DNA from: a virus
Length of the DNA: 55,163 nt
Direction: 5' to 3' (one strand)
IMG/VR virus record: IMGVR_UViG_3300048919_000553
Location: 1-55,163 of that record
Shown in pieces: positions 5,456-51,388 of the stretch. Under the pieces are notes generated by a model. That model was not told the origin of the DNA. It saw only the letters and a list, made by a program, of their open reading frames with translations, and did not search any database. Every line of letters begins with the position of its first letter. Positions within the stretch are counted from its first letter, which is position 1. Both the position numbers and the translations under genes were made by a program.

Positions 5456-5503
5456 TGATGGATGATGACGGATGTTGACGGATGAGGGGGATCGGTGAAG
5501 ACT
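5456..5503 (+). promoter_or_regulatory. TGACGGAT array with overlapping promoter
   Basis: Three octamers spaced exactly 10 bp apart: TGATGGAT (5456), TGACGGAT (5466) and TGACGGAT (5476). The last overlaps a -35-like TTGACG (5475-5480); 17 bp further is a weak -10-like AAGACT (5498-5503). A regulator binding one DNA face could block or activate this promoter for the SSB-like gene. Confidence 0.55.
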
Positions 5504-5512
5504 GATGCCCAG

Positions 5513-5581
5513 CGGCCCCGGGGCCGGGACCTGCACCAACCGTCACAGGCAGGCGCAGACCCCTCCCCGGCCCCGGGGCCG
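5513..5581 (+). repeat. Perfect 16-bp inverted repeat in the 5' UTR
   Basis: Arm CGGCCCCGGGGCCGGG (5513-5528) is perfectly complementary to 5566-5581. Each arm contains the self-palindrome GGCCCCGGGGCC, so the arms can pair with each other or fold separately. It lies between the promoter and the GTG at 5633, so an RNA switch, attenuator or protein-bound leader is possible. An inverted TGACGGAT copy follows at 5604-5611. Confidence 0.55.
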
Positions 5582-5632
5582 CCACCACAACCCCCACTCC
5601 CTCATCCGTCACCCGTCAGGAGACCCACACCC

Positions 5633-6475
5633 GTGACCCATCCGAACCCGTTCACGACCGCCGGTTCCGCCGGCAGCCTCGTCAAGATCGCCGATCTTGA
5701 GAACTGCCTGTGCATCTTCCGGCCCCGCGCCGTCGACACGTTCCCGACCAAGGACTACGGACCCAAGCGGGCCACCGTCGTCGCCATCCACGTCATCTAC
5801 TCGCCCGCCGGCCTGCCCGACCCGGCCAACCCGGCCGCGCCCCGTCAGGCCACCGTCGACAACCCGATCAACTACCCCGAGCTGCTGATCTTCAACGGGC
5901 CGATCCAGGGCCAGTTCCGCCAGCACCTCAACCCCGACGGCGCGAGCCTGATCCCCGGCTGGATCATCAAGGGCGCGCCGCTCAAGGCCGGGCAGCAGCC
6001 CCCGTGGATCCTCAACGGCGAACTGTCCCCAGACGCGCAGGCGCTGGCCAACCAGTGGCACGCCACGTTCGGCGCCACCCTGCCGCCGCTGCCGCCGATC
6101 CCGACCCCGCAGCCCCTGCCCCAGGCCCCAGCCGGCCCGGCCGGCTACCCCCCGGCTCCGCAGGCGCCGTATGGCTACCCGCAGCAGCAGGTCCCGGCCG
6201 GCTACCCGCAGCAGCCGCAGGCGCCGTACGGCTACCCCCAGCAGCCCGCGCCGGCCGTCCCGCAGCCCCAGTACGCCCCCGCCCCTGCGGCTCCGGCGTA
6301 TGCCCAGGCCCCGGCCATGGCCCCGCAGTATGCCCCCGTTCCGCAGGCCCCGGCGGCGGTGCCGCAGCCCCAGTACGCCCCGGCACCCGGCCCGGCTGCG
6401 CCGGTCGCCCCGCCGGCCGGTGCCCCGGCGCCGCAGCCGGTCGCCGCCGGCGGCGTCCCCGCCCCGCCCTTCTAG
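5633..6475 (+). CDS. Candidate ssDNA-binding protein with Pro/Gln/Tyr-rich tail
   Basis: 280 aa from GTG 5633, chosen because AGGAG lies 9 bp upstream; the open frame upstream covers a UTR hairpin. Residues 1-155 form a compact beta-rich domain (SLVKIADLENCLCIFRPRAV; ATVVAIHVIYSPAG; LLIFNGPIQGQF; PPWILNGELSPDAQALANQW) of a type common in actinophage replication regions. The remaining 125 aa are low-complexity with GYPQQ/QAPYGYPQ repeats and end in PAPPF. A structured core, a Pro/Gln-rich linker and a Pro-Phe tip are the layout of bacterial SSB, whose tip recruits partner proteins. SSB function is therefore inferred from architecture and neighbours, not from a diagnostic motif. An NPFTTA motif near the N-terminus recurs in the nuclease and helicase. 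Confidence 0.6.
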   Translation: MTHPNPFTTAGSAGSLVKIADLENCLCIFRPRAVDTFPTKDYGPKRATVVAIHVIYSPAGLPDPANPAAPRQATVDNPINYPELLIFNGPIQGQFRQHLNPDGASLIPGWIIKGAPLKAGQQPPWILNGELSPDAQALANQWHATFGATLPPLPPIPTPQPLPQAPAGPAGYPPAPQAPYGYPQQQVPAGYPQQPQAPYGYPQQPAPAVPQPQYAPAPAAPAYAQAPAMAPQYAPVPQAPAAVPQPQYAPAPGPAAPVAPPAGAPAPQPVAAGGVPAPPF

Positions 6476-6497
6476 AAGGCCTGTCCTCCCCCTGATC

Positions 6498-6550
6498 GCG
6501 CCCCCGGCCCCGCCGCCTCGTCCCCCGAAGGCGGCCCGGGCCGGGGGCGC
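6498..6550 (+). terminator. Long GC-rich hairpin after the SSB-like gene
   Basis: GCGCCCCCGGCCC (6498-6510) pairs perfectly with 6538-6550, with a nested GCCGCC/GGCGGC stem. It lies in the short gap before the gene at 6590. Terminator or processing signal. Confidence 0.55.
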
Positions 6551-6589
6551 ACCCCTTTCACCCCACACCCCACAGGGAAAACCACGATC

Positions 6590-6901
6590 ATGCTGCAGGA
6601 AGACGCGCACCAGGCGGCCATCGACGCCGCCCGCCCACACCTCGCCAAGAACCAGCCGTGGCGCGCCATCAACGCCGCCGTCGACGCCACGTTGACCACG
6701 GCCATGCTCGCCCAGGTCAAAACCCATGATCTGTGGCTGGAAAACCTGCCCGACCAGATCCGCGCCGGCAACCTGCCCACCGGCCTGGTCGCCGAAATCG
6801 CCGCCGCCTGCGCCACGGTCACCGCCGACGCCCCCACCGTCCTGCTCCGGCTGCCGTCGCGCGCCGAGCTGGACCCGGTCACCGTGGACGTGCCCGCATG
6901 A
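6590..6901 (+). CDS. Hypothetical protein
   Basis: 103 aa, ATG start. Helical N-terminus (AAIDAARPHLAKNQPWRAIN) with DATLTTAMLAQVKTHDLWLE and a C-terminal strand (APTVLLRLPSRAELDP). Stop overlaps the next ATG (ATGA). No family recognised; it begins the primase operon. Confidence 0.6.
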   Translation: MLQEDAHQAAIDAARPHLAKNQPWRAINAAVDATLTTAMLAQVKTHDLWLENLPDQIRAGNLPTGLVAEIAAACATVTADAPTVLLRLPSRAELDPVTVDVPA

Positions 6902-7341
6902 CCGCCACCGCCGCCGAGCAGGTCACGGGCAGCGCGATGGCCGACGACGTGTACGAGATCTGGTCCCAGCTCGACGAGCCCGACTACGAACGGCCCGTGC
7001 TGGTCACGATCTCCGTCACTCACCTCGTCTGGGTCGACGCCGGCTACACCACCAAGGAACTGAACCGCCAGGGCAGCCTCTACGAGGACTGCCACGCCGA
7101 GAACGCGGTCGACTGGAGCGACTCCGTCGACGACCCGTACGACGGCTACGAATGGTCCTCACGGGTCTACCCGGACGAGACCGAATGGGGCCCGCAGGAC
7201 CGGATCGAAGGGCCCACCTGGCGCTGCCCCGGCGATCCCTGTCCCGGGTTCCAGCCCGTCGGAGCGTCCTGGTCCCGCCGGCATAGCGCGGCCTGCCCGC
7301 TCGCCCCGCTCCCGCCCATCCCCGCCGAATCGGAGGCGTGA
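6898..7341 (+). CDS. Hypothetical acidic protein
   Basis: 147 aa. ATG 6898 overlaps the upstream stop. Very acidic and aromatic in the middle (DWSDSVDDPYDGYEWSSRVY). The C-terminal part (WRCPGDPCPGFQPVGASWSR then HSAACPLA) has three Cys and a His that may bind zinc. Overlaps the primase start by one base (TGATG). Function unknown; possibly a regulator of replication or a DNA mimic, given the high Asp/Glu content (speculative). Confidence 0.6.
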   Translation: MTATAAEQVTGSAMADDVYEIWSQLDEPDYERPVLVTISVTHLVWVDAGYTTKELNRQGSLYEDCHAENAVDWSDSVDDPYDGYEWSSRVYPDETEWGPQDRIEGPTWRCPGDPCPGFQPVGASWSRRHSAACPLAPLPPIPAESEA

Positions 7342-8180
7342 TGTCCGAGGTGAAGATGTCGATGTCGGAGCCGAGGATCACGGCTGCGCAGCGGCCGGTT
7401 GAGGCCGAGGCGCGGGTGCTGTTCGACAGGTGGGTGCCGGCCAGCCTCGCCCTCGATATGGCGATGGCGGGCATGTCCCGCGTCGGTGATCTTCTGGCTG
7501 ATCTGGGCCGGCACTTCGACCCGGCGAAGTATGCCGAAGACGACAGTGTGATGGGGCAGTTCCGTCGCCTGGTCGACGCGGCCGTCGCCGACGCGATCGT
7601 CGAGGCGCCTCCGTATGACGATCCGACGGTGCTCGGCCGGATGGCCCACTGGTACGCCGAGACGCTCAGGTGGCCGGTGTTCCCTCTGCAGCCCCGCTCG
7701 AAGGCGCCCTACCCGGGGTCGCGTGGTGTGGACGATGCGACAACGGACCTGGCCATGATCACGGCCTGGTGGCAGCACGCCCCCGACTCGAACATCGGAT
7801 TGGCCTGCGGCCACACCATCGACGTCATCGATCTTGACGGACCGGCTGGCATGGCCGCCATGCTCCAGATGAAGGCCACCGGCCAGTTGCCGCCCACGGT
7901 GGGCATCGCGGTGACCGGCGCCGGCTGGCACCTCTACTACCCGGCCCAGCCCGGCCGCCGCAACACGGTCAACCATGTGCACCGCGGCGACGGGGAAATC
8001 GGCGGCGTCGACACCCGCGCGCTCGGTGGCTACGTCGTCGCCCCACCGTCGATCCACCCGAAGGGCATGCGCTACCAGTGGCGACAGGCCCCCTACCAGA
8101 CCGAACCCCCCTGGCCGGTCGCCCGGCCGATCACGATCCCTGTTCTTCAGGTGGACACGGCCCAGGGGATCGCCGCATGA
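7341..8180 (+). CDS. Bifunctional DNA primase/polymerase (prim-pol)
   Basis: 279 aa. ATG 7341 is chosen over the GTG one codon earlier because GGAGG lies at 7332-7336. An N-terminal helical region of about 100 aa is followed by the prim-pol fold: HWYAETLRWPVFPLQPRSKA, then ITAWWQHAPDSNIGLACG, then the metal-binding IDVIDLDG motif (about residues 163-168) and a later GGVDTRALGGYVVAPPSIHP block, all typical of the PF09250 family. These enzymes start DNA synthesis de novo in plasmids and phages. The usual fused helicase is absent and is instead encoded separately at 9188. Confidence 0.88.
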   Translation: MSEVKMSMSEPRITAAQRPVEAEARVLFDRWVPASLALDMAMAGMSRVGDLLADLGRHFDPAKYAEDDSVMGQFRRLVDAAVADAIVEAPPYDDPTVLGRMAHWYAETLRWPVFPLQPRSKAPYPGSRGVDDATTDLAMITAWWQHAPDSNIGLACGHTIDVIDLDGPAGMAAMLQMKATGQLPPTVGIAVTGAGWHLYYPAQPGRRNTVNHVHRGDGEIGGVDTRALGGYVVAPPSIHPKGMRYQWRQAPYQTEPPWPVARPITIPVLQVDTAQGIAA

Positions 8181-8566
8181 CCGAGCCAACCACCGAACCG
8201 GTGCTGTACGAGAGCCTGATCGCGGCGGACCTGGCCGACCTGCTCGACGCGCTCGGCAAAGGTGCGGTCATCACCGAGGTCACCGTCCGCACCGCACGTG
8301 GACGCACCATCACCATGAACGACCCCGAGCAGCCTCCCGCGCTCGTCGACACCGCGATCGGCACAGTCTCGAAGATCCCGGAAGGCCGCTGGTCGGAGAT
8401 CCAGTTCGTGCGGTACGCCACCGAGGGCGGGGCCTGCTGGTTTGGCGAAGACCCCGCCGCGCGCCGGGAAGGCCGTGACGGCGAAGCCACACGATGGGCT
8501 AAGACAGCCGACCTGGTCCAGCTCGGCGCCGTCGTCATCTCCCTGCCCCGGCCGGTCGAACCATGA
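8177..8566 (+). CDS. Hypothetical protein
   Basis: 129 aa from ATG 8177 (ATGA overlap with primase). Pattern of strands and a helix (LIAADLADLLDALGKGAVIT; VTVRTARGRTITMND; EIQFVRYATEGGACWFGED). No family recognised. Tight coupling between primase and small zinc proteins suggests a replication accessory. Confidence 0.6.
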   Translation: MTEPTTEPVLYESLIAADLADLLDALGKGAVITEVTVRTARGRTITMNDPEQPPALVDTAIGTVSKIPEGRWSEIQFVRYATEGGACWFGEDPAARREGRDGEATRWAKTADLVQLGAVVISLPRPVEP

Positions 8567-8700
8567 CCGCCACGCCGGTGAAGAAGTGCCGGGCTGGGTG
8601 TGGGCGGCCGGTGGCGGTCGGGCGGCGCCGTTACTGCGACGACCCCTGGTGCGAAAAACACCAGCGGTGCCGCAAACGCGCCGCCCTGGTCGCCGCATGA
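8563..8700 (+). CDS. Small zinc-finger-like basic protein
   Basis: 45 aa (MTATPVKKCRAGCGRPVAVG, then RRRYCDDPWCEKHQRC). C-x3-C, then C-x4-C, plus a nearby His and Cys, form a likely treble-clef or zinc-ribbon site in a strongly basic protein, so nucleic-acid binding is plausible. Both ends overlap neighbouring genes by 4 bp. Confidence 0.55.
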   Translation: MTATPVKKCRAGCGRPVAVGRRRYCDDPWCEKHQRCRKRAALVAA

Positions 8701-8900
8701 GCCGCATCGTCGTTCTCACCGTGACCTGCGACGGCTTCTACCACCTGGGGGAGCCAGCCCCACTGACCGTCAAGGCCCTGAACATGAAGGCCGCCCGGGC
8801 GGGGCTTCGCCGCGGCGGCTGGTCGTTTCCCCGCGGCGGTGCCGTCTACTGCCCCACCTGCACCAAGACCCGGAACACCGTCAACCCGAAAGCCATCTGA
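8697..8900 (+). CDS. Small zinc-ribbon-like protein
   Basis: 67 aa (MSRIVVLTVTCDGFYHLGEP ... VYCPTCTKTRN). One Cys and a His near the N-terminus and a CPTC knuckle near the C-terminus give a complete four-ligand site, with a helical middle (LNMKAARAGLRRGG). Small proteins of this build are common in actinophages. Stop overlaps the next ATG. Confidence 0.55.
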   Translation: MSRIVVLTVTCDGFYHLGEPAPLTVKALNMKAARAGLRRGGWSFPRGGAVYCPTCTKTRNTVNPKAI

Positions 8901-9142
8901 TGGGCGGCTTGGACTGGTCCGGCAACTCCGGGCCCCGGGCCACGCTCGGCCCGCCGCAGCCCTGCACCGCCGGCTGCGGCGGCCTCGCCCTCCTCCGCGC
9001 ACCCATCTCCCGTGCACCCCTGCACAAGGTGTGCGCCGAACTGCATCCCGACCTGGCCGCCCACTGGGCCGGGGCTGTTCCTGGCGTCGCGCGGGCGGCC
9101 ACGTACGCCGCGAGGTTCGCCGACGACCCCGCACCCTTCTAA
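8900..9142 (+). CDS. Hypothetical small protein ending in DDPAPF
   Basis: 80 aa from ATG 8900 (TGATG overlap). It has a CTAGCG Cys pair, a third Cys and a His (HKVCAELH). The last residues FADDPAPF resemble the acidic-hydrophobic tip of SSB proteins, which could be a docking peptide. Otherwise unrecognised. Confidence 0.5.
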   Translation: MGGLDWSGNSGPRATLGPPQPCTAGCGGLALLRAPISRAPLHKVCAELHPDLAAHWAGAVPGVARAATYAARFADDPAPF

Positions 9143-9187
9143 CCCGCCTTTCCCCTTGCTGCTGTTGATGTTTTGGAGGCTGTGACC

Positions 9188-11347
9188 GTGTCGCTGGACC
9201 CGACCCACACCAGCGACCCGGCCACCCCCGCCAGCGTGGACCACGATGTTGACCAGGCGATAGCGACACTCGCCGGCTGGATCAAACCCACCACCGGCCC
9301 CAAGCTCATCGCCGCACCAGCAGCCCCCGTCGTCCCCCTCCGCCCCGCGGCCCGGCCCGCCAGCGCCGGTGTCAGTGCCTATGGGGCCGCGGCGCTCGCC
9401 GGCGAAATCGCCGAGCTCGCCGTCATGGGCCCCGGCTCTGGCCGCAACCACCAGCTCAACCTGGCCGCCTACAAGCTCGCCGGCTGGATCACCACCGGCG
9501 ATTTGACCGAGCAGGCCATCGCCGACGGGCTGTACGACGCGGCCGTCCGTAACGGCTATGTCGCCAAGGACGGCGAGCGCGCCGCCCGGAACACCATCCG
9601 CTCCGGCCTCTCCGCCGGCGCCACCGCACCCCGCGCCAAGGGCACCCTCGAGGCGCCGACGCCGACCGTCCCGCCGGTCACCCTGCTGCCCCCGCCGCCG
9701 GCGCCTGCAGCTGGCGATCCGGCACCCGAGTCCGCGCCCACGCCGGCCGCGCCGACCGATGAACCCGTGACGCCCGCGCCCGTCCCGAGTGAAAAACCGG
9801 GGATTGATGTGTCGGGGGGTGATGCGGCCGCGATCCGCGCGCTGCACGACGCGATCATCGATCAGAGGGTTCCTGACCTGTTCGTGACGAACGGCGAGAT
9901 CGTCCGCTTGGAACAGGTTTCCGGTGATGTTGCCACCGCCCGTAGCGGCTGCGCGGCCCCGGTCGCCGCCCGGACGCTTGCCCCGGACAGTTTTGCGTCG
10001 CTGCTCGCCCGCCGCACCTACACGTATGTGTCAAAGATCGACCAGGAGACGAAGAAGCGGCGAGTAGCCGAGATAGTGCCAGCGCCGAGGTTGCTTGCCT
10101 CGACGCTGGCCGACCAGCACTGGCCCGGTGTCCGCCCGCTCCACGGCATCGTCGCCACCCCTGTTCTCAGGCCGGATGGGAGCCTGCTGCAGCAGCCCGG
10201 CTATGACCCGGCCACCGGCCTGTTCTACAGCGCGAAGGTCGCCATGCCGACCATTCCCGCCACACCCAGCGGCGAAGAAGTCGCCACCTCGCGTGCCTTC
10301 CTCCTCGACGAGCTGCTATCCGGTTTTCCGTGGGTCGAGCAGGCGGATCTGGCGAACTTCGTCGGGCTGCTCGTGTCGCACATCCTGCGCCCGTACCTGG
10401 ACACGCTCACCCCGTTCGGCCTGATCACCGCCACCACCGCGTCATCCGGAAAGTCCCTGCTGACGGAGCTGCTCGGCGCGCTGTACAGCTCCCGGATCGT
10501 CACCTGGCCCCGCGGCGACGACGCCGAACTGAGAAAAGCCATCACGGCGGTGCTCGGCGAACCGGCCGCCGTCATCGTCTGGGACAACCTCCGCGAAGGT
10601 TCTGTCCTTGATGCGCCGGTGCTCGCGCAGCTGCTCACCGCCCAGGTCTGGTCAGACCGGCAACTCGGCCTGTCGAAGAACATCTCCACGCCCAACGACC
10701 GGCTGTGGCTCGCCACCGGCAACAACCTGCGCCTGGGCGGCGACATGGCCACCCGCACCGTCCTCGTCCGCCTCGACCCGAAAATGCCCCACCCCGAGGA
10801 ACGCACCGGTTTCGCGATCCCCAACCTGGACCAGTGGATCCGCGGACAAGACGCCCAGCGAACCGTGCTGTACCACCTGCTGGTGCTGGTCGCCGACTGG
10901 ATCGCCACCGGCGCTCCCCGCAGCACCCAGGTGATGCGGCAGTTCACCAGCTGGGCCCAGGCCGTGGGCGGCCTGCTCGACCACCACGACATCCCAGGCT
11001 TCCTCGCCAACGTCGACGCCATCCGCGCGATGGACGACGACGACAACGAATGGGCCGTCTTCCTCACCAAGTGGCATGAGCTCCACGGCGACAAGCCACT
11101 GACCGCGGCCGAGCTCCGACGCTCCGCCGACGTCGACTTCACCCCCTTTGGCGGCGCCGTCGACCGGTGGGACGGCGCGTTCCTCGTCGACGGCCGCAAC
11201 GGCCTCCCCGTCAACGCGAAAAGCCTCGGTCGCCGCCTGGCCGGGCAGGTCGGCCGGTTCCACGGCGACTACGTCCTGCACCGCGGTGTCATCTCCCACG
11301 GCCCCGTCACCATCTGGTCGGTCCACTGCACCGACACCACCCAGTAG
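9188..11347 (+). CDS. Replicative helicase / AAA-type ATPase
   Basis: 719 aa. GTG 9188 is chosen because GGAGG (9175-9179) lies 8 bp upstream; GTG 9182 is the alternative. An N-terminal module (about 55-140: LAGEIAELAVMGPGSGRNHQ ... GDLTEQAIADGLYDAAV) resembles the helical domain usually found at the C-terminus of prim-pol proteins. A Pro/Ala linker follows. The ATPase core has Walker A ATTASSGKS (about 415-423), Walker B AAVIVWDN (about 460-467) and a sensor-like WLATGNNLRLGGD with downstream arginines (TRTVLVRLD). It probably acts with the prim-pol at 7341; primase and helicase are split genes instead of the usual fusion. A strong hairpin and an iteron-rich gap follow. Confidence 0.82.
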   Translation: MSLDPTHTSDPATPASVDHDVDQAIATLAGWIKPTTGPKLIAAPAAPVVPLRPAARPASAGVSAYGAAALAGEIAELAVMGPGSGRNHQLNLAAYKLAGWITTGDLTEQAIADGLYDAAVRNGYVAKDGERAARNTIRSGLSAGATAPRAKGTLEAPTPTVPPVTLLPPPPAPAAGDPAPESAPTPAAPTDEPVTPAPVPSEKPGIDVSGGDAAAIRALHDAIIDQRVPDLFVTNGEIVRLEQVSGDVATARSGCAAPVAARTLAPDSFASLLARRTYTYVSKIDQETKKRRVAEIVPAPRLLASTLADQHWPGVRPLHGIVATPVLRPDGSLLQQPGYDPATGLFYSAKVAMPTIPATPSGEEVATSRAFLLDELLSGFPWVEQADLANFVGLLVSHILRPYLDTLTPFGLITATTASSGKSLLTELLGALYSSRIVTWPRGDDAELRKAITAVLGEPAAVIVWDNLREGSVLDAPVLAQLLTAQVWSDRQLGLSKNISTPNDRLWLATGNNLRLGGDMATRTVLVRLDPKMPHPEERTGFAIPNLDQWIRGQDAQRTVLYHLLVLVADWIATGAPRSTQVMRQFTSWAQAVGGLLDHHDIPGFLANVDAIRAMDDDDNEWAVFLTKWHELHGDKPLTAAELRRSADVDFTPFGGAVDRWDGAFLVDGRNGLPVNAKSLGRRLAGQVGRFHGDYVLHRGVISHGPVTIWSVHCTDTTQ

Positions 11348-11373
11348 CCCCGGCGCCCCGCGCGCACCCCTTC

Positions 11374-11409
11374 GACGCCCCCGCCCGGCAGCTCGCCGGC
11401 GGGGGCGTC
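11374..11409 (+). terminator. Hairpin terminator after the helicase gene
   Basis: GACGCCCCCGCC (11374-11385) pairs perfectly with GGCGGGGGCGTC (11398-11409). No U tract. Confidence 0.65.
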
Positions 11410-11413
11410 CGCG

Positions 11414-11772
11414 TTGGCGGGTTTGCCGCCAGTCCTAAACCCGCCAAACCCGCCAACCGGCCTCCGGCCCGCCGGCCGGGGCGCTGACCTGCGGAGCCAC
11501 CCAGCTGGGGCGGGTTTCCAAACCCGCCAGATCAGGGGTGACATACTCCAAACCCGCCAAAGATCAACATGTAAATGTGCAGGTCAAAAGGGGTCTTGGC
11601 GGGTTTGGAGTATTTGGAGTATTTAGATCTGACCCTGACGCACGAGACCAGCCGAACCAGACACACACACGAGAGAAGGGTGGGATCCAAACCCGCCAAA
11701 CCCGCCAAACCAGCCAGCACCCGCCCTGACCTGCGCAAACACGTGGCAGGTTTGGCTGGCGCAAACCCGCCA
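11414..11772. repeat. AAACCCGCCAA iteron array
   Basis: About nine copies of AAACCCGCCA or its complement: inverted at 11414, direct pairs at 9-bp period at 11437/11446 and about 11690/11699, a GCGGGTTT-CC-AAACCCGC palindrome at 11510-11527, and a perfect 18-bp inverted repeat (ATACTCCAAACCCGCCAA at 11543-11560 against 11596-11613) around a 35-bp A-rich centre. A further direct copy is at about 11762. This is a typical layout for initiator-bound iterons beside an unwinding element. Confidence 0.7.
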
Positions 11773-11808
11773 CGACATCCGCCACACCAGCCGACACCTG
11801 CCACCAGG

Positions 11809-11837
11809 TAGTTGCCGACGCAACAAACAGGCACAAT
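11809..11837 (+). promoter_or_regulatory. TAGTTG-N6-CAAC operator and leaderless promoter
   Basis: TAGTTG (11809-11814), 6-bp spacer, CAACAA. A -10-like CACAAT (11832-11837) lies 17 bp after TAGTTG and 6 bp before ATG 11844, so the transcript would be leaderless. Same palindrome as at 17751, 22081 and 29895. Confidence 0.55.
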
Positions 11838-11843
11838 CGGCCC

Positions 11844-21700: not shown

Positions 21701-21819
21701 GTACCCCTGTTGGTCGGGCCGGGCAGGGTCCGGCGCTAAAGGCTCGGGTCCGTCGTACCGCGTCAGTGCCCCGCCCCGGTGTCGGGGGGAGCGCGGCCAG
21801 GGCGTGACCTCCGCCTTGC

Positions 21820-21891
21820 TGCGAGGCCAGGATTCGAACCTGGATCTCCGGGTCCAGAGCCCGGCCGACTGCCTGTTGTCTAGACCCCGCA
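21820..21891 (-). tRNA. tRNA-Gln(CTG)
   Basis: Leftward 72-nt gene. Acceptor stem TGCGGGG/CCTCGCA (7 pairs, one G-U), anticodon stem CCGGG/CCCGG with loop CTCTGGA (anticodon CTG), variable loop AGAT, T-arm CCAGG-TTCGAAT-CCTGG perfect. D-loop keeps GGCAG, but the D-stem is weak with a mismatch. CCA not encoded. It would read CAG, the main Gln codon here. Confidence 0.78.
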
Positions 21892-22080: not shown

Positions 22081-22129
22081 TAGTTGCGTGTGCAACTGTA
22101 TGATCCGGCGCAGACGACTGTTGACGGAT
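22081..22129 (+). promoter_or_regulatory. Head-operon promoter with operator and TGACGGAT
   Basis: TAGTTG (22081) N6 CAACTG, followed at once by a -10 TATGAT (22099-22104). A TGACGGAT copy (22122-22129), in the same TTGACGGATGAGGGGG context as at 5475, lies between the likely start of transcription and the GTG at 22143. Confidence 0.62.
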
Positions 22130-29894: not shown

Positions 29895-29943
29895 TAGTTG
29901 CGGATGCAACTATGCTGACGGATGGCAGCGGATGCTGCCGGAT
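29895..29943 (+). promoter_or_regulatory. Tail-operon promoter with TAGTTG operator and GGAT repeats
   Basis: TAGTTG (29895-29900) N6 CAACTA (29907-29912) overlaps -10 TATGCT (29911-29916). Then TGACGGAT (29916-29923) and two decayed copies, giving GGAT at 29920, 29930 and 29940, again a 10-bp period. Confidence 0.6.
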
Positions 29944-29963: not shown

Positions 29964-30719
29964 GTGAGCAAGCAGGGCGGCCTGGGCGACGGCTTCCTGA
30001 TCGACCAGTACCGGATCTCACCCGACATCTCCTCCGTCAAGCTGTCCGGCGGCCCAGCGCCGTGGGAGTGCACCGGCCTCGACAAGTCCGCCTACGAGCG
30101 CATCGGCCTGATCCGCGACGGCGACATGGAAGCCGTCGCGTTCTTCAACCCAGACCCGAACAACCTCGTCGGCGCCCACCTGGCCCTGTCGTCGCTGCCG
30201 CTGACCGACCGGACGCTGACCTACCAGCGCGGCACCGCATTGGGTAGCCCGGCCGCATCGCTGATCGCCAAGCAAGGCAACTACGACCCCGAACGCGCCG
30301 ACGACGGCAGCCTGACCATCAAGATCAAGGCTGAGGCCAACGGCTACGGATTGGTCTGGGGCTACCAGGCCACCCCGGGCGTACGCCACGACACGACTGC
30401 CACCAACGGCGCCTCCGTCGACGACACCGCCGGCAGCACCTTCGGCCTCACCGCTTTTCTTCATGTGACCGGCGTCGTCGGCACCTCCGTCACGGTGAAA
30501 CTGCAGGAAAGCTCGGACAACGGGGGTGCTGACGCTTTCGCCGACGTCGTCGGCGGCGCCTTCACCGCGGTTACCCCGGCCGGGCTGGGCGCGCAGCGCA
30601 TCCAGACCAGCTTGACGCAAACCGTGGAACGGTATCTCCGCGTCGTCACCACTGGCACCTTCACATCGGCTGATTTCTGCGTCGTCGTGTTCCGCCACCC
30701 CGTGGCGGTGACCTACTAA
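29964..30719 (+). CDS. Tail tube protein 1 (major tail-like), with extra C-terminal domain
   Basis: 251 aa. GTG 29964 is preferred because GGGAGGG lies just upstream and the N-terminus VSKQGGLGDGF then aligns with MAKQGGLGMSL of the paralogue at 31160. Residues 1-150 match the tube fold (WECTGLDKSAYERIGLIRDG ... AVAFFNPDPNNLVGAHLALS). Residues about 150-251 form a second beta domain (VTGVVGTSVTVKLQESSDNG; YLRVVTTGTFTSADFCVVVF) that resembles an Ig-like surface decoration. Upstream ATG 29922 would add 14 aa. Confidence 0.8.
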   Translation: MSKQGGLGDGFLIDQYRISPDISSVKLSGGPAPWECTGLDKSAYERIGLIRDGDMEAVAFFNPDPNNLVGAHLALSSLPLTDRTLTYQRGTALGSPAASLIAKQGNYDPERADDGSLTIKIKAEANGYGLVWGYQATPGVRHDTTATNGASVDDTAGSTFGLTAFLHVTGVVGTSVTVKLQESSDNGGADAFADVVGGAFTAVTPAGLGAQRIQTSLTQTVERYLRVVTTGTFTSADFCVVVFRHPVAVTY

Positions 30720-45215: not shown

Positions 45216-45224
45216 CCGTCCCAC

Positions 45225-45270: not shown

Positions 45271-45334
45271 GTTGATGCTCGCGCCCGTCCAGCACGCCGC
45301 TGGGCCGGACGGACGCGAGGAACAGGGGCCCGGG

Positions 45335-45562
45335 CTACATCTCCCGGCCGACGACGACGAAGAACTCGCCCGGTTGGAGTTCCATCGCGTCGGCGACGAG
45401 CTGCGCAGCCTCGGGGGTCAGGCAGATCACGCCGTCCACCGGCTCACCGCCGACCAGACGAACCAGTACGTACCGGTCACCCGGGTGCTGCCGGTTGCGG
45501 TAGCTGACGGCCATCTGGTGCAGTAGCCGGGCCCGCTCGGCGGGGGTCACTTCGGACCCCAT
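45335..45562 (-). CDS. Small hypothetical protein (leftward)
   Basis: 75 aa (MGSEVTPAERARLLHQMAVS; YVLVRLVGGEPVDGVICLTP EAAQLVADAMELQPGEFFVV). A compact alpha/beta protein with hydrophobic ends. ATG overlaps the end of the upstream leftward gene by 16 bp. Possibly lysogeny-expressed. Confidence 0.6.
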   Translation of the reverse strand: MGSEVTPAERARLLHQMAVSYRNRQHPGDRYVLVRLVGGEPVDGVICLTPEAAQLVADAMELQPGEFFVVVGREM

Positions 45563-45711
45563 CCGATCTCGCGTTTGTAGGCCTCGACGCCCTCATCGCT
45601 CCAGCACCAGTCGGACGGGATGACGGACTGGTGGTCCCACCCGGACAGCTCGGGGTCCGGGTCGGTTGGCCGATCGACCTGCGGCCCGTCGTCGGGCAAG
45701 ATGGCTTCCAC
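45547..45711 (-). CDS. Small hypothetical acidic protein (leftward)
   Basis: 54 aa from GTG 45711, with AGAGGGG 12 bp upstream; an ATG at 45798 would extend it to 83 aa. Contains LSGWDHQSVIPSDWCWSDEG VEAYKREIGWGPK, a Trp-rich end. Start uncertain; function unknown. Confidence 0.45.
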   Translation of the reverse strand: MEAILPDDGPQVDRPTDPDPELSGWDHQSVIPSDWCWSDEGVEAYKREIGWGPK

Positions 45712-45846
45712 AGCGGCGTGCGCCCCTCTACGGCGTTCGTCCACGGCCCTGTCCGCCGGGTGTGCAACCACCTGGACCCCGGACAGGGCCCTTTTCATGC
45801 GCCAGTAAGTGGCGCGCGGATCTCTCGGGCACCGTAGCGCGCCCGA

Positions 45847-45887
45847 GGGCATATGCCCAGAGCACCAGTCCGGGACAGGTGCTCTGG
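45847..45887. promoter_or_regulatory. Two palindromes upstream of the 45904 HTH gene
   Basis: GGGCATATGCCC (45847-45858, perfect) and CCAGAGCACC/GGTGCTCTGG (45857-45866 and 45878-45887, perfect 10-bp arms). They lie between divergent genes and suit an operator bound by the HTH protein. Confidence 0.5.
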
Positions 45888-45903
45888 ACTGAGCATCCCG
45901 GCT

Positions 45904-46188
45904 GTGACCAGCACCAGCGGCGGCCCCGACTTCGCGCACGCCGGACAGCTGATCACCTTCGGGCAGGTGCGGGCCCTGCTCGCCGTCGGCCGCAACCGGG
46001 CGTCGGCGATCAGCCACGACGCACGGTTCCCCCGGCCCTGGTTCGTCTCCGAGGACGGCAAGATCCGGCTCTGGCGACGCAAGCTGGTCGTCGCCTGGAT
46101 CGACAGCAACCGGCCGAGACTCGCCACCGAACTGGACGCCTCTCAGCCGGGGTGGCGCGACGACTCGCCATCGCCCGGGGAAGGGTAG
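45904..46188 (+). CDS. HTH DNA-binding protein (excisionase/regulator-like)
   Basis: 94 aa from GTG 45904. The core LITFGQVRALLAVGRNRASA then SEDGKIRLWRRKLVVAWIDS shows a winged-helix AlpA/MerR-type DNA-binding domain: helix-turn-helix, wing and final helix. Two palindromes upstream and a TGACGGAT array downstream make it a candidate regulator of the right-end operon or of lysogeny. Confidence 0.65.
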   Translation: MTSTSGGPDFAHAGQLITFGQVRALLAVGRNRASAISHDARFPRPWFVSEDGKIRLWRRKLVVAWIDSNRPRLATELDASQPGWRDDSPSPGEG

Positions 46189-46262
46189 TCAGCATCTCCG
46201 CCGCTGTGAGACTCTCGGCGGTATAGGGCCTCGGGTCCATCCGTCACAGGTCTTCCGGACGC

Positions 46263-46300
46263 TGACGGATGTTGACGGATACTGACGGATAGGCCAGTCT
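46263..46300 (+). promoter_or_regulatory. Three TGACGGAT repeats overlapping a promoter
   Basis: TGACGGAT at 46263, 46273 and 46283, exactly 10 bp apart. TTGACG (46272-46277), 17-bp spacer, CAGTCT (46295-46300), then 6 bp to GTG 46307, so a leaderless transcript. The 31-bp array is identical to the one at 51350. An inverted copy is at 46239-46246. Confidence 0.72.
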
Positions 46301-46306
46301 GGACGG

Positions 46307-46945
46307 GTGACCCTCACCCACCCAGACCCCACCCCCACACTCACCCCGCCGTCGCCGGGCGACCTCGCCCTCACCCTCACCGAGGTCCACGCCGCCGCCA
46401 CGTCCGGCGACCTCGACGGCTACACGACCGGTCTCCGCCTGCTGCACGGCCAGACCCGGGCCTGCCTGCACGCTGTCGGCGGCGCTTTCGAGTGCGAGGC
46501 CTGTGACACGCCGGTCGACCTCGACCAGCTTGCCGCCGCGCCGCTGATGCCGGCCGGGCCCCGGCCGCTGGCCCGCACCGCCGCCGCGCAGGCCTACCAG
46601 CTTCATGTCGCCGCGCATCTCGTCACGCTGCTCCCCGATGTCGAACTGTCCGTCAGCACCTGGCAGTTCCTCGACGGCGTCCGCGTGTCGGTGCACAGCA
46701 GCGAGAACGACAAGCCGCGGGCGGCCGAGCTGGAACTGGCCGGTTTTCGACAGCTCTGGTGGGTACTCGGTGGCGGCCCGGTCAACGTCGTCCAGCCGGA
46801 CTCCGGAACCGTGCACCTCGACATGTCCACCCAGTACGGGGATGTCGAAGTTCGCGCAGGGGTGATCCTCGCCCCGGTCGGCACCGTCCAGGACGACGCC
46901 CGAACCTGGGCGGCCACCACCCAGCCGCGCTCCGCCTCGTCATGA
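46307..46945 (+). CDS. Hypothetical protein, first gene of the right-end operon
   Basis: 212 aa from GTG 46307, probably leaderless. Contains a CEACDTPVDLDQL knuckle (about 62-74) after a helical part, and two beta segments (VELSVSTWQFLDGVRVSVHS; VHLDMSTQYGDVEVRAGVIL). No family recognised. Confidence 0.62.
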   Translation: MTLTHPDPTPTLTPPSPGDLALTLTEVHAAATSGDLDGYTTGLRLLHGQTRACLHAVGGAFECEACDTPVDLDQLAAAPLMPAGPRPLARTAAAQAYQLHVAAHLVTLLPDVELSVSTWQFLDGVRVSVHSSENDKPRAAELELAGFRQLWWVLGGGPVNVVQPDSGTVHLDMSTQYGDVEVRAGVILAPVGTVQDDARTWAATTQPRSASS

Positions 46946-47094
46946 TCCGGCTGCTGGTCGCCTTGGCCGTACTGCTCGCCATCTACCCGCCGGCTGCCCT
47001 GGCGCTCGCCATCGGCGGCGGGCTGCTCTCGGGTGGCCGGGCCCAGTGGCGGTTTGAGAAGTCCGGCCGGCCGCCGATGGGCTGGGGCCGATGA
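46942..47094 (+). CDS. Small membrane protein
   Basis: 50 aa (MIRLLVALAVLLAIYPPAAL ALAIGGGLL then basic SGGRAQWRFEKSGRPP). Two short hydrophobic stretches with a Pro-Pro break. ATGA overlap with the previous gene. Confidence 0.5.
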   Translation: MIRLLVALAVLLAIYPPAALALAIGGGLLSGGRAQWRFEKSGRPPMGWGR

Positions 47095-47123
47095 GTCTGC
47101 CCGAATCCGCCTGACATGAAGAC

Positions 47124-47161
47124 GGCCCCAGTCCTGCGCGCCAACGCAGGGGTCTGGGGCC
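47124..47161 (+). terminator. Nested hairpin terminator
   Basis: GGCCCCAG/CTGGGGCC (47124-47131 and 47154-47161) with an inner CCTGCG/CGCAGG stem. Lies in the gap after the small membrane protein. Confidence 0.6.
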
Positions 47162-47200
47162 TGGACCAGCCCGACCCCTCATTGCCCGAGGAGCCCTGAC

Positions 47201-47383
47201 GTGGCCGTACGACGCAGCATGCCGGATCCCGACCCTGGAATCCGGCCAATCCCACCAGGCCGACCCTGGCCGCACCTGCCGAACCCCGATGGCACAGCCG
47301 TGCCGGCCGATGACGACTGGTACTACGTGCCACCGCCCGGCCGTGGGCCCGTTCCGCCGCCCTACCCGGGGCGGCCCGCATGA
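47201..47383 (+). CDS. Pro-rich small protein
   Basis: 60 aa from GTG 47201 with GAGGAG upstream (VAVRRSMPDPDPGIRPIPPG ... YYVPPPGRGPVPPPYPGRP). Disordered, 30 percent Pro; may be a linker/adaptor protein. Overlaps the next ATG. Confidence 0.5.
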   Translation: MAVRRSMPDPDPGIRPIPPGRPWPHLPNPDGTAVPADDDWYYVPPPGRGPVPPPYPGRPA

Positions 47384-47574
47384 GCCGCGCGAGCCGTGCT
47401 GCCGCGCTCACCGCGGACGTGGCCGCCACCCGCCGCCGTCTCGACGACACGGTCGACGGCATGGCCGGGCTGCACGGCCCGGCGCTGAACCGGCAGGTGC
47501 GGGCGGCGGTCGCTTTGGTCAACGAAGCCGCCGACACCACCGCCAAGATCAAACTACTGGGAGGGGCCCGGTGA
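47380..47574 (+). CDS. Small helical protein
   Basis: 64 aa (MSRASRAAALTADVAATRRR LDDTVDGMAG; RAAVALVNEAADTTAKIKLL). Basic and alpha-helical; start and stop overlap neighbours by 4 bp. Confidence 0.5.
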   Translation: MSRASRAAALTADVAATRRRLDDTVDGMAGLHGPALNRQVRAAVALVNEAADTTAKIKLLGGAR

Positions 47575-47732
47575 GCCGCATCGACCCAGACCTCGACCAG
47601 GCCCGCCTGCGCGTCGAGGAACGGCGTGCCCTGCTGCCGCTGGCCCCGGCCGATCGTGTCGGTCAGGTGCAGGAGCAGATTGCCACGGCCGAGGCCGACC
47701 AGCCGCCCGCTGCCGGACCGGCCGGGCCGTGA
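47571..47732 (+). CDS. Small helical protein
   Basis: 53 aa from GTG 47571 (VSRIDPDLDQARLRVEERRA; RVGQVQEQIATAEADQPPAA). Likely coiled coil. Unknown; part of the FtsK-like gene operon. Confidence 0.5.
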   Translation: MSRIDPDLDQARLRVEERRALLPLAPADRVGQVQEQIATAEADQPPAAGPAGP

Positions 47733-48274
47733 GCCGTTTCCGACGCAGGTCGGACGGGCCCGGCGACGACTACCTGCGAACCGTCACCGGCCCGGCGGCC
47801 GTCCCCGCGGCTGAGCCGGACGAGTTTGGCGTGCCCGTCGACATCGTCATCGCGCCGGCCGCGTCCACCGTGGACGAGCTGCTATCCCGGCTCGACCGGC
47901 TACGCCAGGGTGGGCGGCTGGTCGGTCCGCACCGCATCGTCGTCACGACGATCACCACACCGGACCCCGTCCCGGTTTCGGAGCCGGCCCGACCCGACCC
48001 GGCCGATCGGGTCGGATCGGGTCCCGATCGGATCTCCGATCCAGCCGATCGGCCACCCGATCCGCAGCCCCTCGCACTCACCCCCAGCCCGGGCGGATCC
48101 GATCCGGCGCCGCCCACCGAAGAGGCGGTCGCGCTGCTGATCGGCCGGCTGAACGGCCGGCCGGTGACCGCCGACCAGCTGCGCCTCGGCCTGCGGATTG
48201 GCTCTGAAAAGGCCCGTGAACTGCGGGAACAGGTCAACGCCGAGCTGTACCCCCAGGCAGGTGACTCCCGATGA
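47729..48274 (+). CDS. Protein preceding the FtsK-like translocase, carries CCGATC repeats
   Basis: 181 aa from GTG 47729. N-terminal alpha/beta part (PVDIVIAPAASTVDELLSRL; RIVVTTITTPDPVPV), a low-complexity Asp/Arg/Pro middle (RPDPADRVGSGPDRISDPAD) encoded by DNA full of CCGATC-type sites, and a C-terminal winged-helix-like segment (AVALLIGRLNGRPVTADQLR LGLRIGSEKARELREQVNAE) that resembles DNA-binding tails of Tra/Spd accessory proteins. Probably a partner of the translocase. Confidence 0.62.
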   Translation: MSRFRRRSDGPGDDYLRTVTGPAAVPAAEPDEFGVPVDIVIAPAASTVDELLSRLDRLRQGGRLVGPHRIVVTTITTPDPVPVSEPARPDPADRVGSGPDRISDPADRPPDPQPLALTPSPGGSDPAPPTEEAVALLIGRLNGRPVTADQLRLGLRIGSEKARELREQVNAELYPQAGDSR

Positions 48275-48395
48275 CCACAGACGAGAGGACCCCAGTCGAC
48301 GTGCCGATCGGACAGACGACCCATCCGATCGAAGATCCGATCCGACCCGATCCTGAGCGGATCATCGATCGGCACGGCAGCCGGCTACCCGATCG
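48003..48395. repeat. Cluster of phased CCGATC/GATCGG sites
   Basis: Fifteen GATC sites with a CCGATCSG-like core. The first six start at 48003, 48013, 48024, 48035, 48045 and 48057, i.e. spaced 10-12 bp (one helical turn). A second group lies at 48304-48395 in the first codons of the FtsK-like gene. Resembles clustered recognition sites of TraB/FtsK translocases or a partition site. Confidence 0.6.
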
Positions 48396-50571
48396 CCGAC
48401 CGGCGGCGCGGGCGTTGGACCGGCGGTCAACAGCCTGGTGGCGGCCCGATGGCGACGGTGGCTGGCGTTACATCGTGTGGGGCCGGATCCGCCGCATCGA
48501 CGAGCCGCCCACTCCACGTCAACCCGCAGGGATTGCGGCCGGCCGGGCGGCGCGCCGCGCTCTCTACCGGATCTACCGCGGCCACATCATCCCGACCCGC
48601 CGAGGTTTCGACGCGCTCACGTTCGGGGTGATCCGCGAACAGATCCGCCACGCCCGCACGGCCGGCGACCAGGCCGCGCTCGCCGACTGGATCGACCGCC
48701 TGGAGCAGCTCCGCGACAGCCGCCGGGCCCGGATCCGCGACCTACCCCAGATCATCGCGTCCCTGGCCATCGCGGCGGCCGCCGGCGGCGCGGCCGTCAC
48801 CGTGCTGCTGCTGGGCGGCGGGATCGCGGTCGTGGTCACCCATCCGGCGGGCTGGGGCTGGAACGACTGGTTCACCTTCTGGGGCGGCCTCGTCGGCACC
48901 GGCATGACCGTCCTGGTCATCGGCCTACGGATCGGTGTGTGGATCGCCCCACTGGGCTGGCTGCTCGCGACCTGGCGGGCCGGCCGGCCTATCCCCGGCA
49001 GCGAACCCACCTGGATGCTCGCCCCGGCGCTACGCGCCGCCGAAACCGAACCGATCACCCCATCGCTCGTCGTCGTCGCCCTACGCGACCTGGGCCTGGC
49101 CCGGCTACGACGCTCGATCCAGGCGATGCCCGACGCCGGCGCGGCGATGCTCTCAACGATCCGAACCGCGGGCTGCGGCGTCGAACTCGAGGTACGCCTG
49201 CCCTCAGGCACCTCGACCGACGAGATCCAGGCCCGGGCCCGCAAACTCGCCGAGAACCTGTCCCGCCACGAACACGAGCTGAACATCTCGATCCCACCCG
49301 AGCAGGCCCGCACCGTGCGCCTGTGGGTGGCCGACACCGGCGCCCTCGACGAACCCGTCGGCCCGTCACCGCTGCTCCTCGACCCGGACCTGACCGCCGA
49401 CTACTACACCGCCCGGGCACCGCTGGGCCCGAACCTGCGCGGCGACCCGGTCGGCATCTCCCTGTTCCAACGGCACCTGACGATGACCGGCCAGTCCAAC
49501 CAGGGCAAAACCGCCTCCCTGCGGTCAATCGCCCTGTGGCTCGCGCAGGACCCGACGGTGGAGTTCCGCATCGGCGATCTGAAGGGGGTGGGCGACTGGC
49601 GGATGTTCACCGGCCTGGCCACCGTCCTGATCCAGGGGCCGACCGAAGCACACGTCATCGCGGTCACGGAGATGCTCGAGGCGGTTGTTATCGAGATGCA
49701 GCGGCGCATCGTCGCGTTGGAACAGTCCGGGGCCACTGACGGGGTCACCCGGGACATGGCCCACGCCCCTGGGTCTGGGTTCCATCCGATCGTGGCGCTC
49801 GTCGACGAGGCGCAGGTCCCGTTCATGTGCCCCGCCGTCGACGAGCTCAAGCGGCCGTACGGCGGGACCAAGGCCAACAGCCGGTTCTTCAAGGCCAGCC
49901 GGGAGATTCTCAACCAGGGGCGGGCCGTCAACGTCACCCTGTGGCTGGGCACGCAGGACCCGACGAACGCGAACTTCCCCGCGCTGATCCGCGAAGCCGC
50001 CCACATCCGCGCCGCCATCAAGCTCGGTACCGAGGAGCAGGCGCGGATGGCGAACGGCGACCCGGCCGTCGACAACGGCGCCGCCCCCCACAAGCTGCGC
50101 CTCGACCTCGACAAAGGCACCCTCGTCATCTCCGGCTCCGGGATCAAATTCCCACCCGGCCAGCTCTACGAAACGATCCGAGGGCATTACATCTCCGGCG
50201 CAGACGGCAACACGCTGGCCGAGCGGGCCAAAGCCCGCCGCCGCCCGGCGCTCACCGATGACGGCACCTTCGAAGACGACAACGAACCGCGCGACGCGTT
50301 GGCCGACGTCGAAATGGTGCTGGGCGTCGAACCGCGGGTCCTCACCCAGGAAGTCCTCGCCCGGCTGCGCGACCTCGCCCCCGGGGTGTACGGCGGCTGG
50401 ACGTTCCCCGACCTCACCGGGCTGCTCGCCGAATGGGGTGCCGAGCCGTACAAGTCCGACGGCCGAATGGTCGTCGGCCTCAGCAAGGTCCGCGCAGCCC
50501 TCACACGCCGTGACCAGACCGGCCAGGGAGGTGGCAGGGAGGCAGGGAGAACTCCCTACCCCACTCCCTGA
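48271..50571 (+). CDS. FtsK/SpoIIIE-like DNA translocase with two TM segments
   Basis: 766 aa. Basic N-terminal region, two membrane helices at about 161-190 (AIAAAAGGAAVTVLLLGGGI) and 201-235 (FTFWGGLVGTGMTVLVIGLR). Motor domain: Walker A TGQSNQGKT (about 405-413), RIGDLKGVGDWRMF, Walker B HPIVALVDEAQ (about 505-515), RAVNVTLWLGTQDPTNANFP and IRAAIKLGTEEQARMANGD, as in FtsK/SpoIIIE/TraB motors. A C-terminal domain (EVLARLRDLAPGVYGGWTFP DLTGLLAEWG then VVGLSKVRAAL) looks like the winged-helix gamma module that reads 8-bp DNA motifs. In actinomycete conjugative elements one such protein moves dsDNA between cells; in a phage it may aid partition, prophage transfer or genome entry. Confidence 0.88.
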   Translation: MTTDERTPVDVPIGQTTHPIEDPIRPDPERIIDRHGSRLPDRRPAARALDRRSTAWWRPDGDGGWRYIVWGRIRRIDEPPTPRQPAGIAAGRAARRALYRIYRGHIIPTRRGFDALTFGVIREQIRHARTAGDQAALADWIDRLEQLRDSRRARIRDLPQIIASLAIAAAAGGAAVTVLLLGGGIAVVVTHPAGWGWNDWFTFWGGLVGTGMTVLVIGLRIGVWIAPLGWLLATWRAGRPIPGSEPTWMLAPALRAAETEPITPSLVVVALRDLGLARLRRSIQAMPDAGAAMLSTIRTAGCGVELEVRLPSGTSTDEIQARARKLAENLSRHEHELNISIPPEQARTVRLWVADTGALDEPVGPSPLLLDPDLTADYYTARAPLGPNLRGDPVGISLFQRHLTMTGQSNQGKTASLRSIALWLAQDPTVEFRIGDLKGVGDWRMFTGLATVLIQGPTEAHVIAVTEMLEAVVIEMQRRIVALEQSGATDGVTRDMAHAPGSGFHPIVALVDEAQVPFMCPAVDELKRPYGGTKANSRFFKASREILNQGRAVNVTLWLGTQDPTNANFPALIREAAHIRAAIKLGTEEQARMANGDPAVDNGAAPHKLRLDLDKGTLVISGSGIKFPPGQLYETIRGHYISGADGNTLAERAKARRRPALTDDGTFEDDNEPRDALADVEMVLGVEPRVLTQEVLARLRDLAPGVYGGWTFPDLTGLLAEWGAEPYKSDGRMVVGLSKVRAALTRRDQTGQGGGREAGRTPYPTP

Positions 50572-50691
50572 CCCCTCGCCACCCGGCCTGACCTGCACAG
50601 GCAGGCCGCCAGGGAGTCGGAACACCGACCCATCCCTGACCCGCCGCGACCCCCAGACGGACACGGTCGGCAACCCAGACCGAGGTCCCTG
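50524..50691. repeat. CAGGGAG/CTCCCTG site cluster after the translocase gene
   Basis: CAGGGAG-type motif at 50524, 50535, 50543 and 50610, complementary CTCCCT or TCCCTG at 50552, 50564, 50633 and 50686. The gap 50572-50749 has no gene and includes a GGCCTG/CAGGCC hairpin. Could be a regulator, partition or translocase target. Confidence 0.5.
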
Positions 50692-50749
50692 ACCGGCAAC
50701 TACCCCCACTCACAGTTACCCACGCTGTCAACGGAAAGGATCGAGGAAC

Positions 50750-50935
50750 GTGAGATTCAAGAAAGGCGACCGCATTACAGGCGGCCGCGCCGGGTGGACA
50801 GCAAACGGAACCGTCAGCGGCATCCGCGATGAGAAAGAGTTCACCCAGGGCGAGGAGCGCACCGTATTCGTCAGATGGGACGGCACCACCTTCACCGAAG
50901 ACGAGATGGGAGTAAGTGAAGTCAAGCCAGAATAA
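50750..50935 (+). CDS. Small SH3-like beta protein
   Basis: 61 aa from GTG 50750 with GAGGA upstream (VRFKKGDRITGGRAGWTANG TVSGIRDEKE; RTVFVRWDGTTFTEDEMGVS). Strand pattern resembles a small KOW/SH3-type barrel. Function unknown. Confidence 0.6.
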   Translation: MRFKKGDRITGGRAGWTANGTVSGIRDEKEFTQGEERTVFVRWDGTTFTEDEMGVSEVKPE

Positions 50936-50956
50936 TCAAAGGTAAAGGAACAAGCT

Positions 50957-51145
50957 GTGAAGATCCCGAAACCTCGTCAGGGCGCAGCGCCCATGGGATG
51001 CTGCCCGGCCTGCGGCAACCCGTTCACCACCGCCGACCCAGCCACCCCGATCACCCCGCCGCCGGACTCGTGGTCGACCGGCAAGCCCGTTCACCGGTCG
51101 CACACCACCGACCCGCGCAGCGGCTTCTACGGCTGCGCCCAATGA
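50957..51145 (+). CDS. Small zinc-ribbon protein
   Basis: 62 aa from GTG 50957. GCCPACGNPF supplies a C-x2-C knuckle, HRSH and a late Cys (FYGCAQ) may complete the site. Overlaps the next ATG by 4 bp. Confidence 0.55.
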   Translation: MKIPKPRQGAAPMGCCPACGNPFTTADPATPITPPPDSWSTGKPVHRSHTTDPRSGFYGCAQ

Positions 51146-51315
51146 AGCGCCAAACACAGGCCGACCGTGACGCCGCGGTAAGGGCCGCGCACGAGGACAA
51201 CGTCGCCGACACGGCGGATGTCGCCGAGCAGTGGGGCGCAGACCTGTCCCAACTGTCGCCGGCCGATCGGAATGCGGTTCGCGCCGCCCGTGCGGCACGT
51301 GACAGCAGGCGCTGA
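51142..51315 (+). CDS. Small hypothetical protein
   Basis: 57 aa (MKRQTQADRDAAVRAAHEDN; AEQWGADLSQLSPADRNAVR). Helical. Ends 35 bp before the TGACGGAT array. Confidence 0.5.
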   Translation: MKRQTQADRDAAVRAAHEDNVADTADVAEQWGADLSQLSPADRNAVRAARAARDSRR

Positions 51316-51350
51316 CGGCCCGCTCCAGCCCGCCGGAGCCAACCGGAGAC

Positions 51351-51388
51351 TGACGGATGTTGACGGATACTGACGGATAGGGCAGTGT
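51351..51388 (+). promoter_or_regulatory. Three TGACGGAT repeats before the SF1 helicase
   Basis: TGACGGAT at 51351, 51361 and 51371 (10-bp period). TTGACG (51360-51365), 17 bp, CAGTGT (51383-51388). Same array as at 46263. Transcript start would be near 51395. Confidence 0.7.

Follow-up and report, generated by a model that had tools for sequence, protein, structure and literature searches.

The operators of recombination directionality factors (RDFs) are direct repeats one helical turn apart, bound cooperatively and head to tail; such repeats serve phage 186 Apl both at the attachment site (att) and for promoter repression (PMC7498355). RdfS forms head-to-tail filaments of winged helix-turn-helix (HTH) protein at promoters (PMC11963761), and BldC is a winged-HTH protein bound head to tail to 9-bp repeats at promoters (PMC5859096). 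Here, arrays of the octamer TGACGGAT were analyzed in IMG/VR virus record IMGVR_UViG_3300048919_000553 (55,163 bp, 70% G+C), the whole of which is referred to as the window. The window is apparently a 55-kb actinobacterial prophage, seemingly merged with a conjugative element. A preliminary description of its sequence had compared the arrays with the stoperators of phage L5 and the start-associated sequences of cluster K mycobacteriophages.

The arrays resemble the sites of phage 186 Apl, P2 Cox and lambda Xis in their one-turn direct repeats (10–11 bp for Apl), their several copies, their overlap with promoters and the presence of a small winged-HTH protein of a temperate element (PMC7498355). 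The sites of those proteins, however, cluster at att and one promoter region, whereas the octamer marks several operons. Streptomyces BldC is likewise an actinobacterial, MerR-like winged-HTH protein acting on direct repeats at promoters (PMC5859096), but its consensus is AATTXXXX(C) in 9-bp units and its regulon is a developmental one of the host; here the word is TGACGGAT in 10-bp units.

L5 operators and stoperators are also asymmetric, co-oriented and scattered over the genome of a temperate actinophage (PMC9283540); they are, however, single 13-bp sites for a monomeric two-domain repressor, without tandem phasing, whereas an 8-bp word in tandem is found here. Cluster K start-associated sequences are conserved short words 5' of genes, mostly in one orientation. 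They consist of the 13-bp GGGATAGGAGCCC, found 3–7 bp ahead of start codons within the non-structural half of the genome (PMC3203893), whereas in the window the main arrays lie on promoters and late genes also have copies. The earlier comparison therefore proved superficial, as one-turn tandem octamers belong to neither system (PMC9283540, PMC3203893), and the helix-turn spacing is better matched by the winged-HTH class of RDFs and BldC.

Results

Octamer Copies and Phasing

The exact octamer occurs 16 times in the window, against 2.2 occurrences expected under an order-3 Markov model (z = 9.3). Fourteen copies are on the plus strand (5, 20, 117, 5466, 5476, 22122, 29916, 46263, 46273, 46283, 51351, 51361, 51371 and 55141) and two on the minus strand (5604 and 46239). 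Exact same-strand pairs less than 60 bp apart were always spaced by 10 or 20 bp, with the 15-bp pair 5/20 as the sole exception. Six order-3 Markov sequences yielded no phased array of three copies, and the octamer read backwards, used as a control, occurred once. When one mismatch was allowed, the excess became weak (55 against 41.6 expected), which indicates that the exact word alone matters. The octamer arrays are real; they are neither a product of chance nor a host repeat.

All three phased arrays of the preliminary description were recovered. The array at 5456..5483 (plus strand), 5' of the replication operon, has the structure TGATGGAT-TGACGGAT-TGACGGAT, its first member being a one-base variant followed by two exact copies. 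Perfect three-copy arrays are located at 46262..46293 and 51350..51381 (both plus strand); their reported identity was confirmed, over 32 bp rather than 31 bp. The decayed array that had been recognized by GGAT at 29920, 29930 and 29940 is also real and consists of TGACGGAT at 29916, CAGCGGAT at 29926 and TGCCGGAT at 29936. The single and inverted copies listed before were found as well, but the copy at 117 and TGACGGGT at 5611 had been missed. The latter, on the minus strand, shares one base with the inverted copy at 5604, and together they occupy 5604..5618, just 5' of a Shine-Dalgarno (SD) sequence and the likely GTG start at 5633. The second inverted copy lies at 46239..46246 (minus strand).

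According to the gene calls used here, 14 of the 16 exact copies are non-coding, against 11% of the sequence as a whole; two of these 14 rest on a later start for the first open reading frame (ORF). Fourteen of 16 are also co-directional with transcription.

Promoter Placement of the Arrays

Promoters were scored on the plus strand with a hand-set sigma70/HrdB matrix, which yielded 4730 candidates. The three triplets coincided with ranks 1, 3 and 4, all three combining TTGACG with a NAGNNT -10 box across a 17-bp spacer: TTGACG(5475)-17-AAGACT(5498), the top rank, at the 5456 array, TTGACG(46272)-17-CAGTCT(46295) at the 46262 array and TTGACG(51360)-17-CAGTGT(51383) at the 51350 array. TTGACG is present 15 times on the plus strand, and a positively scoring -10 box at 17 bp follows only at the three triplets, the chance of such a box being 0.0014, 0.009 and 0.016 for the three sites. 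Because two of the arrays are duplicates, the coincidence was counted as two to three independent events. The earlier assignment of TTGACG as a -35 box thus holds for the triplets and fails at 22121, where no -10 box follows. A stricter E. coli consensus scan did not list the three promoters, as their -10 boxes are weak.

The predicted transcription starts are 5510, 46307 and 51395, of which 46307 is the GTG itself, corresponding to a leaderless message. In all three promoters, octamers occupy positions -44 to -37 and -34 to -27, so that the -35 contact of RNA polymerase is covered; the three main arrays span -54 to -17 relative to the predicted promoters, and the array ends are at least 16 bp from the likely start codons. 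Given this promoter placement, the co-orientation and the intergenic bias, the interpretation of the arrays as a regulatory regulon signal of the element, already proposed in the preliminary description, is well supported.

The arrays are most plausibly read as operators of an element-encoded winged-HTH protein of the excisionase/Cox/Apl/BldC type, with a probability of roughly 0.5, judged from the sequence and its analysis. In such a case, each octamer would be bound by one monomer, neighbours being arranged head to tail at intervals of one helical turn, and a short filament would cover the -35 boxes of the replication (5475), transfer (46272) and helicase-excisionase-integrase (51360) promoters. 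The expected outcome would be joint repression, or a timed switch, of the three operons. Weaker accessory or excision-related sites may be represented by the single and decayed copies 3' of the late promoters (22122, 29916) and by those at the record ends (5/20/117, 55141). We infer protein binding at the sites, the class of the binder and the product of 45904-46188 as its likeliest candidate; repression is preferred over activation because a consensus -35 box would be covered.

Candidate Binding Proteins

Two or three small proteins of the winged-HTH kind are encoded in the element. The leading candidate binder is an excisionase/AlpA-like HTH protein (45904..46188, plus strand; phrog_66, E 0.02), homologs of which match HTH_17 weakly, and its gene ends 75 bp ahead of an array. 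Its best homologs (41–57% identity) are in actinobacterial genomes. One of them, with 54% identity in the genome denoted G528, is directly followed by five TGACGGG within 75 bp, including a pair spaced by 10 bp. The window's own arrays aside, no further TGACGG cluster occurs in the roughly 290 kb surrounding seven homologs, and the position of this one beside a homolog is suggestive, though not proof, of a link between the 45904-46188 product and the octamer. A conserved stretch, GGCGCGCGA...CACGCTAGCG, was also noted 5' of this gene family (45800-45860 in the window; homologs in loci L213, L214, L219 and L220) and is possibly its promoter.

The clear case of such a protein is the excisionase encoded at 53374..53607 (plus strand; HTH_17/AlpA; PF12728, E 7e-12; PF05930, E 3e-5; phrog_66, E 3e-10), the second candidate. 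The third is a small excisionase-like HTH ORF at 1..291 (plus strand; HTH_28, E 0.0014, below the cut-off), which carries octamers at 5, 20 and 117 and had no useful relatives in 297 genomes. Sequence searches of structure databases with the candidate binders gave no match, the excisionase query being in frame 53376 instead of 53374 there and in the ten-protein Pfam and NCBIfam scans, and single-sequence structure models of two candidates reached predicted local distance difference test (pLDDT) values of 43 and 61, too poor for use.

Distribution Outside the Window

The pair TTGACGGATNNTGACGGAT had no match in 395 Actinomycetes genomes. Seven chromosomal matches to the triple array were obtained, mostly simple tandem repeats in unrelated phyla, and an origin as host repeat or microsatellite was rejected. 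No array was detected in the structural relatives L119/G050 or in 39 other related loci; the only relative sharing the 22122 copy was L118, a near-identical 5-kb fragment. The earlier suggestion of a signal for this phage group is consequently not supported. The tandem octamer was present in 47 of the viral contigs scanned (36–67% G+C), compared to 13 for the reversed-octamer control, several of the latter being simple tandem repeats. In the literature, the octamer gave only unrelated hits among the top 30 matches.

Late Promoter Regions and Record Ends

The late promoter region at 22081..22129 (plus strand) contains the palindrome TAGTTGC-N4-GCAACTG, TATGAT and the single TGACGGAT at 22122, which precedes an SD sequence and the GTG (22143) of the capsid protease. 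That at 29895..29943 (plus strand) contains the palindrome TAGTTGC-N4-GCAACTA and the degenerate triplet 29916/29926/29936, upstream of the major tail protein gene (29964-30719). At these late genes the octamer is found at or shortly past the predicted start, 3' of the palindrome (22081, 29895). TAGTTGC-N4-GCAAC palindromes were observed at 11809, 22081 and 29895, ahead of the terminase, capsid and tail operons, and are likely late-promoter operators.

Single copies are present at both record ends (5, 20, 117 and 55141). Joining the integrase stop to the first ORF would yield a well-spaced SD sequence, GGAGGACTGA directly before ATG (55141-55163 + 1-39), and the record may be a rotated circle; a search of other viral contigs did not recover the junction of its ends. 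The copies at 5476, 22122 and 20 (and, should the record ends join, 55141) have TGACGGATGAG in common, 5' of an SD-like sequence and a start codon, an arrangement that recalls the cluster K start-associated sequences.

Gene Content of the Element

The window carries genes for terminase, portal, capsid protease, major capsid, tail, tape measure and endolysin proteins. The first gene of the replication operon (5633..6475, plus strand; phrog_870) has no assigned function; its product is possibly a single-stranded DNA-binding protein. A Prim-Pol DNA primase/polymerase is encoded at 7338..8180 (plus strand; PF09250, E 2e-37) and a replicative primase/helicase-like protein at 9173..11347 (plus strand; phrog_19930), with a distant likeness to phiAsp2 Pas55 detected by tblastn. 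The transfer-module operon begins with a gene of no assigned function (46307..46945, plus strand). A predicted tRNA-Gln (ctg) is located at 21818-21891 on the minus strand, opposite to the genes.

The FtsK/SpoIIIE TraB-like DNA translocase (48271..50571, plus strand) is 53–54% identical to those of integrative conjugative elements, for example a 13.5-kb Streptomyces NBC_00859 circle; for the excisionase and integrase of the window, identity with the proteins of such elements is 37–47%. The helicase-xis-int operon is opened by a UvrD-like helicase (51423..53171, plus strand; PF00580/PF13361) and includes the tyrosine integrase (53604..55163, plus strand; phrog_1, E 7e-23), whose final codons contain the TGACGGAT copy at 55141. 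Owing to these likenesses the element looks like a prophage joined to the transfer and integration module of an integrative conjugative element, and the gene content of 48271-55163 suggests a phage-conjugative hybrid. Octamer copies are spread over both the phage half and the conjugative half.

Discussion

Several observations weigh against operators of a winged-HTH protein. The elements that share the excisionase and integrase (37–47% identity) have no such array, and among 12 homologs of the 45904-46188 product a TGACGG array accompanies only one, which lacks a recognisable -10 box. RDF sites tend to be weak and to vary in sequence (PMC7498355, PMC11963761), whereas the octamers here are nearly invariant. 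The -10 boxes of the three promoters match the consensus poorly and the matrix was set by hand. Co-orientation is a weaker sign than it appears, with nearly all genes on one strand, and the sample of independent arrays is small, two of the three being a 32-bp duplicate.

An immunity repressor bound as a monomer to the asymmetric octamer, the arrays being its operators and stoperators as in phage L5, appears rather unlikely. It would account for about 16 copies of an asymmetric, co-oriented word both at promoters and within transcribed regions (22122, 29916), and the multi-HTH protein of 1469-2272 (phrog_1590) could serve as the repressor; however, stoperators are 13 bp long and not tandem-phased (PMC9283540), two octamer copies are inverted, and no Pfam, PHROG or NCBIfam repressor was identified among the ten candidate proteins scanned per library. 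Lower odds were assigned to a factor of host or phage origin that does not belong to the winged-HTH excisionase/BldC class, such as an OmpR/SARP-type activator. Some response regulators also bind direct repeats (PMC5859096), and weak -10 boxes fit activation, but the -35 boxes are already at consensus, no regulator of this type was seen among the scanned window proteins, and the absence of the tandem pair from all 395 Actinomycetes genomes makes a host regulon unlikely. The Streptomyces plasmid TraB protein recognises 8-bp repeats at clt (PMC4170104), and two identical arrays flank the translocase gene here, so the octamers might be TraB/FtsK recognition sequences orienting the element's own translocase. 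This explanation is highly improbable: in three relatives with 53–54% identical translocases, as in the window, the 3' end of the gene carries GGGAGG repeats that surround GGGAGAACTCCC or a close variant, and all three relatives lack a TGACGGAT array.

Finally, it is improbable, if less so than a role in translocation, that the arrays are replication origin iterons for a phage initiator, as TGACGGAT is in phages with a D5-type helicase-primase. About ten D5 lineages have the same octamer with 10-bp spacing. Of the 47 tandem-octamer contigs, 23 encode a D5_N/DUF5906 helicase-primase belonging to one family, and in most of these 23 the cluster lies within about 250 bp of the D5 stop codon; region 5456-5618 shows the same '+ + + hairpin - -' geometry, 5' of Prim-Pol. 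Origins of D5 phages, however, form a single cluster just 3' of the D5 gene, frequently accompanied by a CGCGCG hairpin, whereas the octamer arrays are at several distant loci, on promoters, and the origin-like cluster of the window is elsewhere and of other sequence. Neither Prim-Pol nor the primase/helicase protein of the window contains D5_N according to Pfam, and a separate cluster of AAACCCGCC iterons lies directly 3' of the primase/helicase gene; on these two grounds the arrays were not read as an origin despite the geometry at 5456-5618. Moreover, the origin octamers of D5 phages vary freely, and finding D5 origins with any tandem octamer is partly a matter of ascertainment. At D5 loci drawn irrespective of the octamer, a TGACGGAT cluster occupied that place in only 3 of 52, and many of the remaining loci showed this layout built on another word. 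A tandem-octamer search is thus bound to pick out D5 origins, and TGACGGAT is one iteron among many.

The two disfavoured roles have candidate clusters of their own in the window. The CAGGGAGG/GGGAGAACTCCC cluster at 50523..50571 (no strand assigned), at the 3' end of the translocase gene, is clt-like by position and conserved in the three related elements; the octamer was rejected as a translocase recognition site because these relatives keep the GGGAGG cluster instead. GGGAGG repeats around GGGAGAACTCCC are kept at the 3' ends of TraB-like genes in L211, L205-L207 and L208-L210, and a similar cluster was observed in G528 (L226-L227), where no TraB homolog was detected. The candidate replication origin, at 11405..11790 (no strand assigned), is the non-coding gap after the primase/helicase gene, with at least 10 copies of AAACCCGCC in both orientations; the octamer is accordingly disfavoured as origin iteron of this phage. 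Within the same interval, the middle is AT-rich and CAAACCCGCCAA is repeated in both orientations. No relative was found in a primase scan of viral contigs, and phiAsp2, the best annotated match by primase, has two scattered octamers.

In D5 phages, a shared layout was seen right after the D5 stop codon, with tandem octamers in approximately 10-bp phase, a hairpin that is often CGCGCG-rich, and inverted octamers (L016, L013, L030, L060, L063, L073, L090, L106 and others). The octamer differs by lineage, even between proteins 70% identical (L016, L060). In Lactobacillus phage phiadh, the annotated rep_origin is likewise found at this place. One origin layout with a lineage-specific iteron word would make the pairing of origin and initiator predictable from sequence, which may matter more widely.

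Operators of an excisionase-type winged-HTH protein remain the preferred interpretation of the TGACGGAT arrays. Whether a single filament protein of this type is the master switch for replication, virion structure, conjugative transfer and excision in the hybrid is a more doubtful proposition, to be held tentatively. To our knowledge, no RDF-like regulon covering a whole temperate element has been described. If the operator interpretation is right, the arrays provide a directly testable operator together with two or three small candidate proteins, and they would give a handle on how an actinobacterial element that is both phage-like and conjugative chooses between staying, replicating, packaging and transferring.

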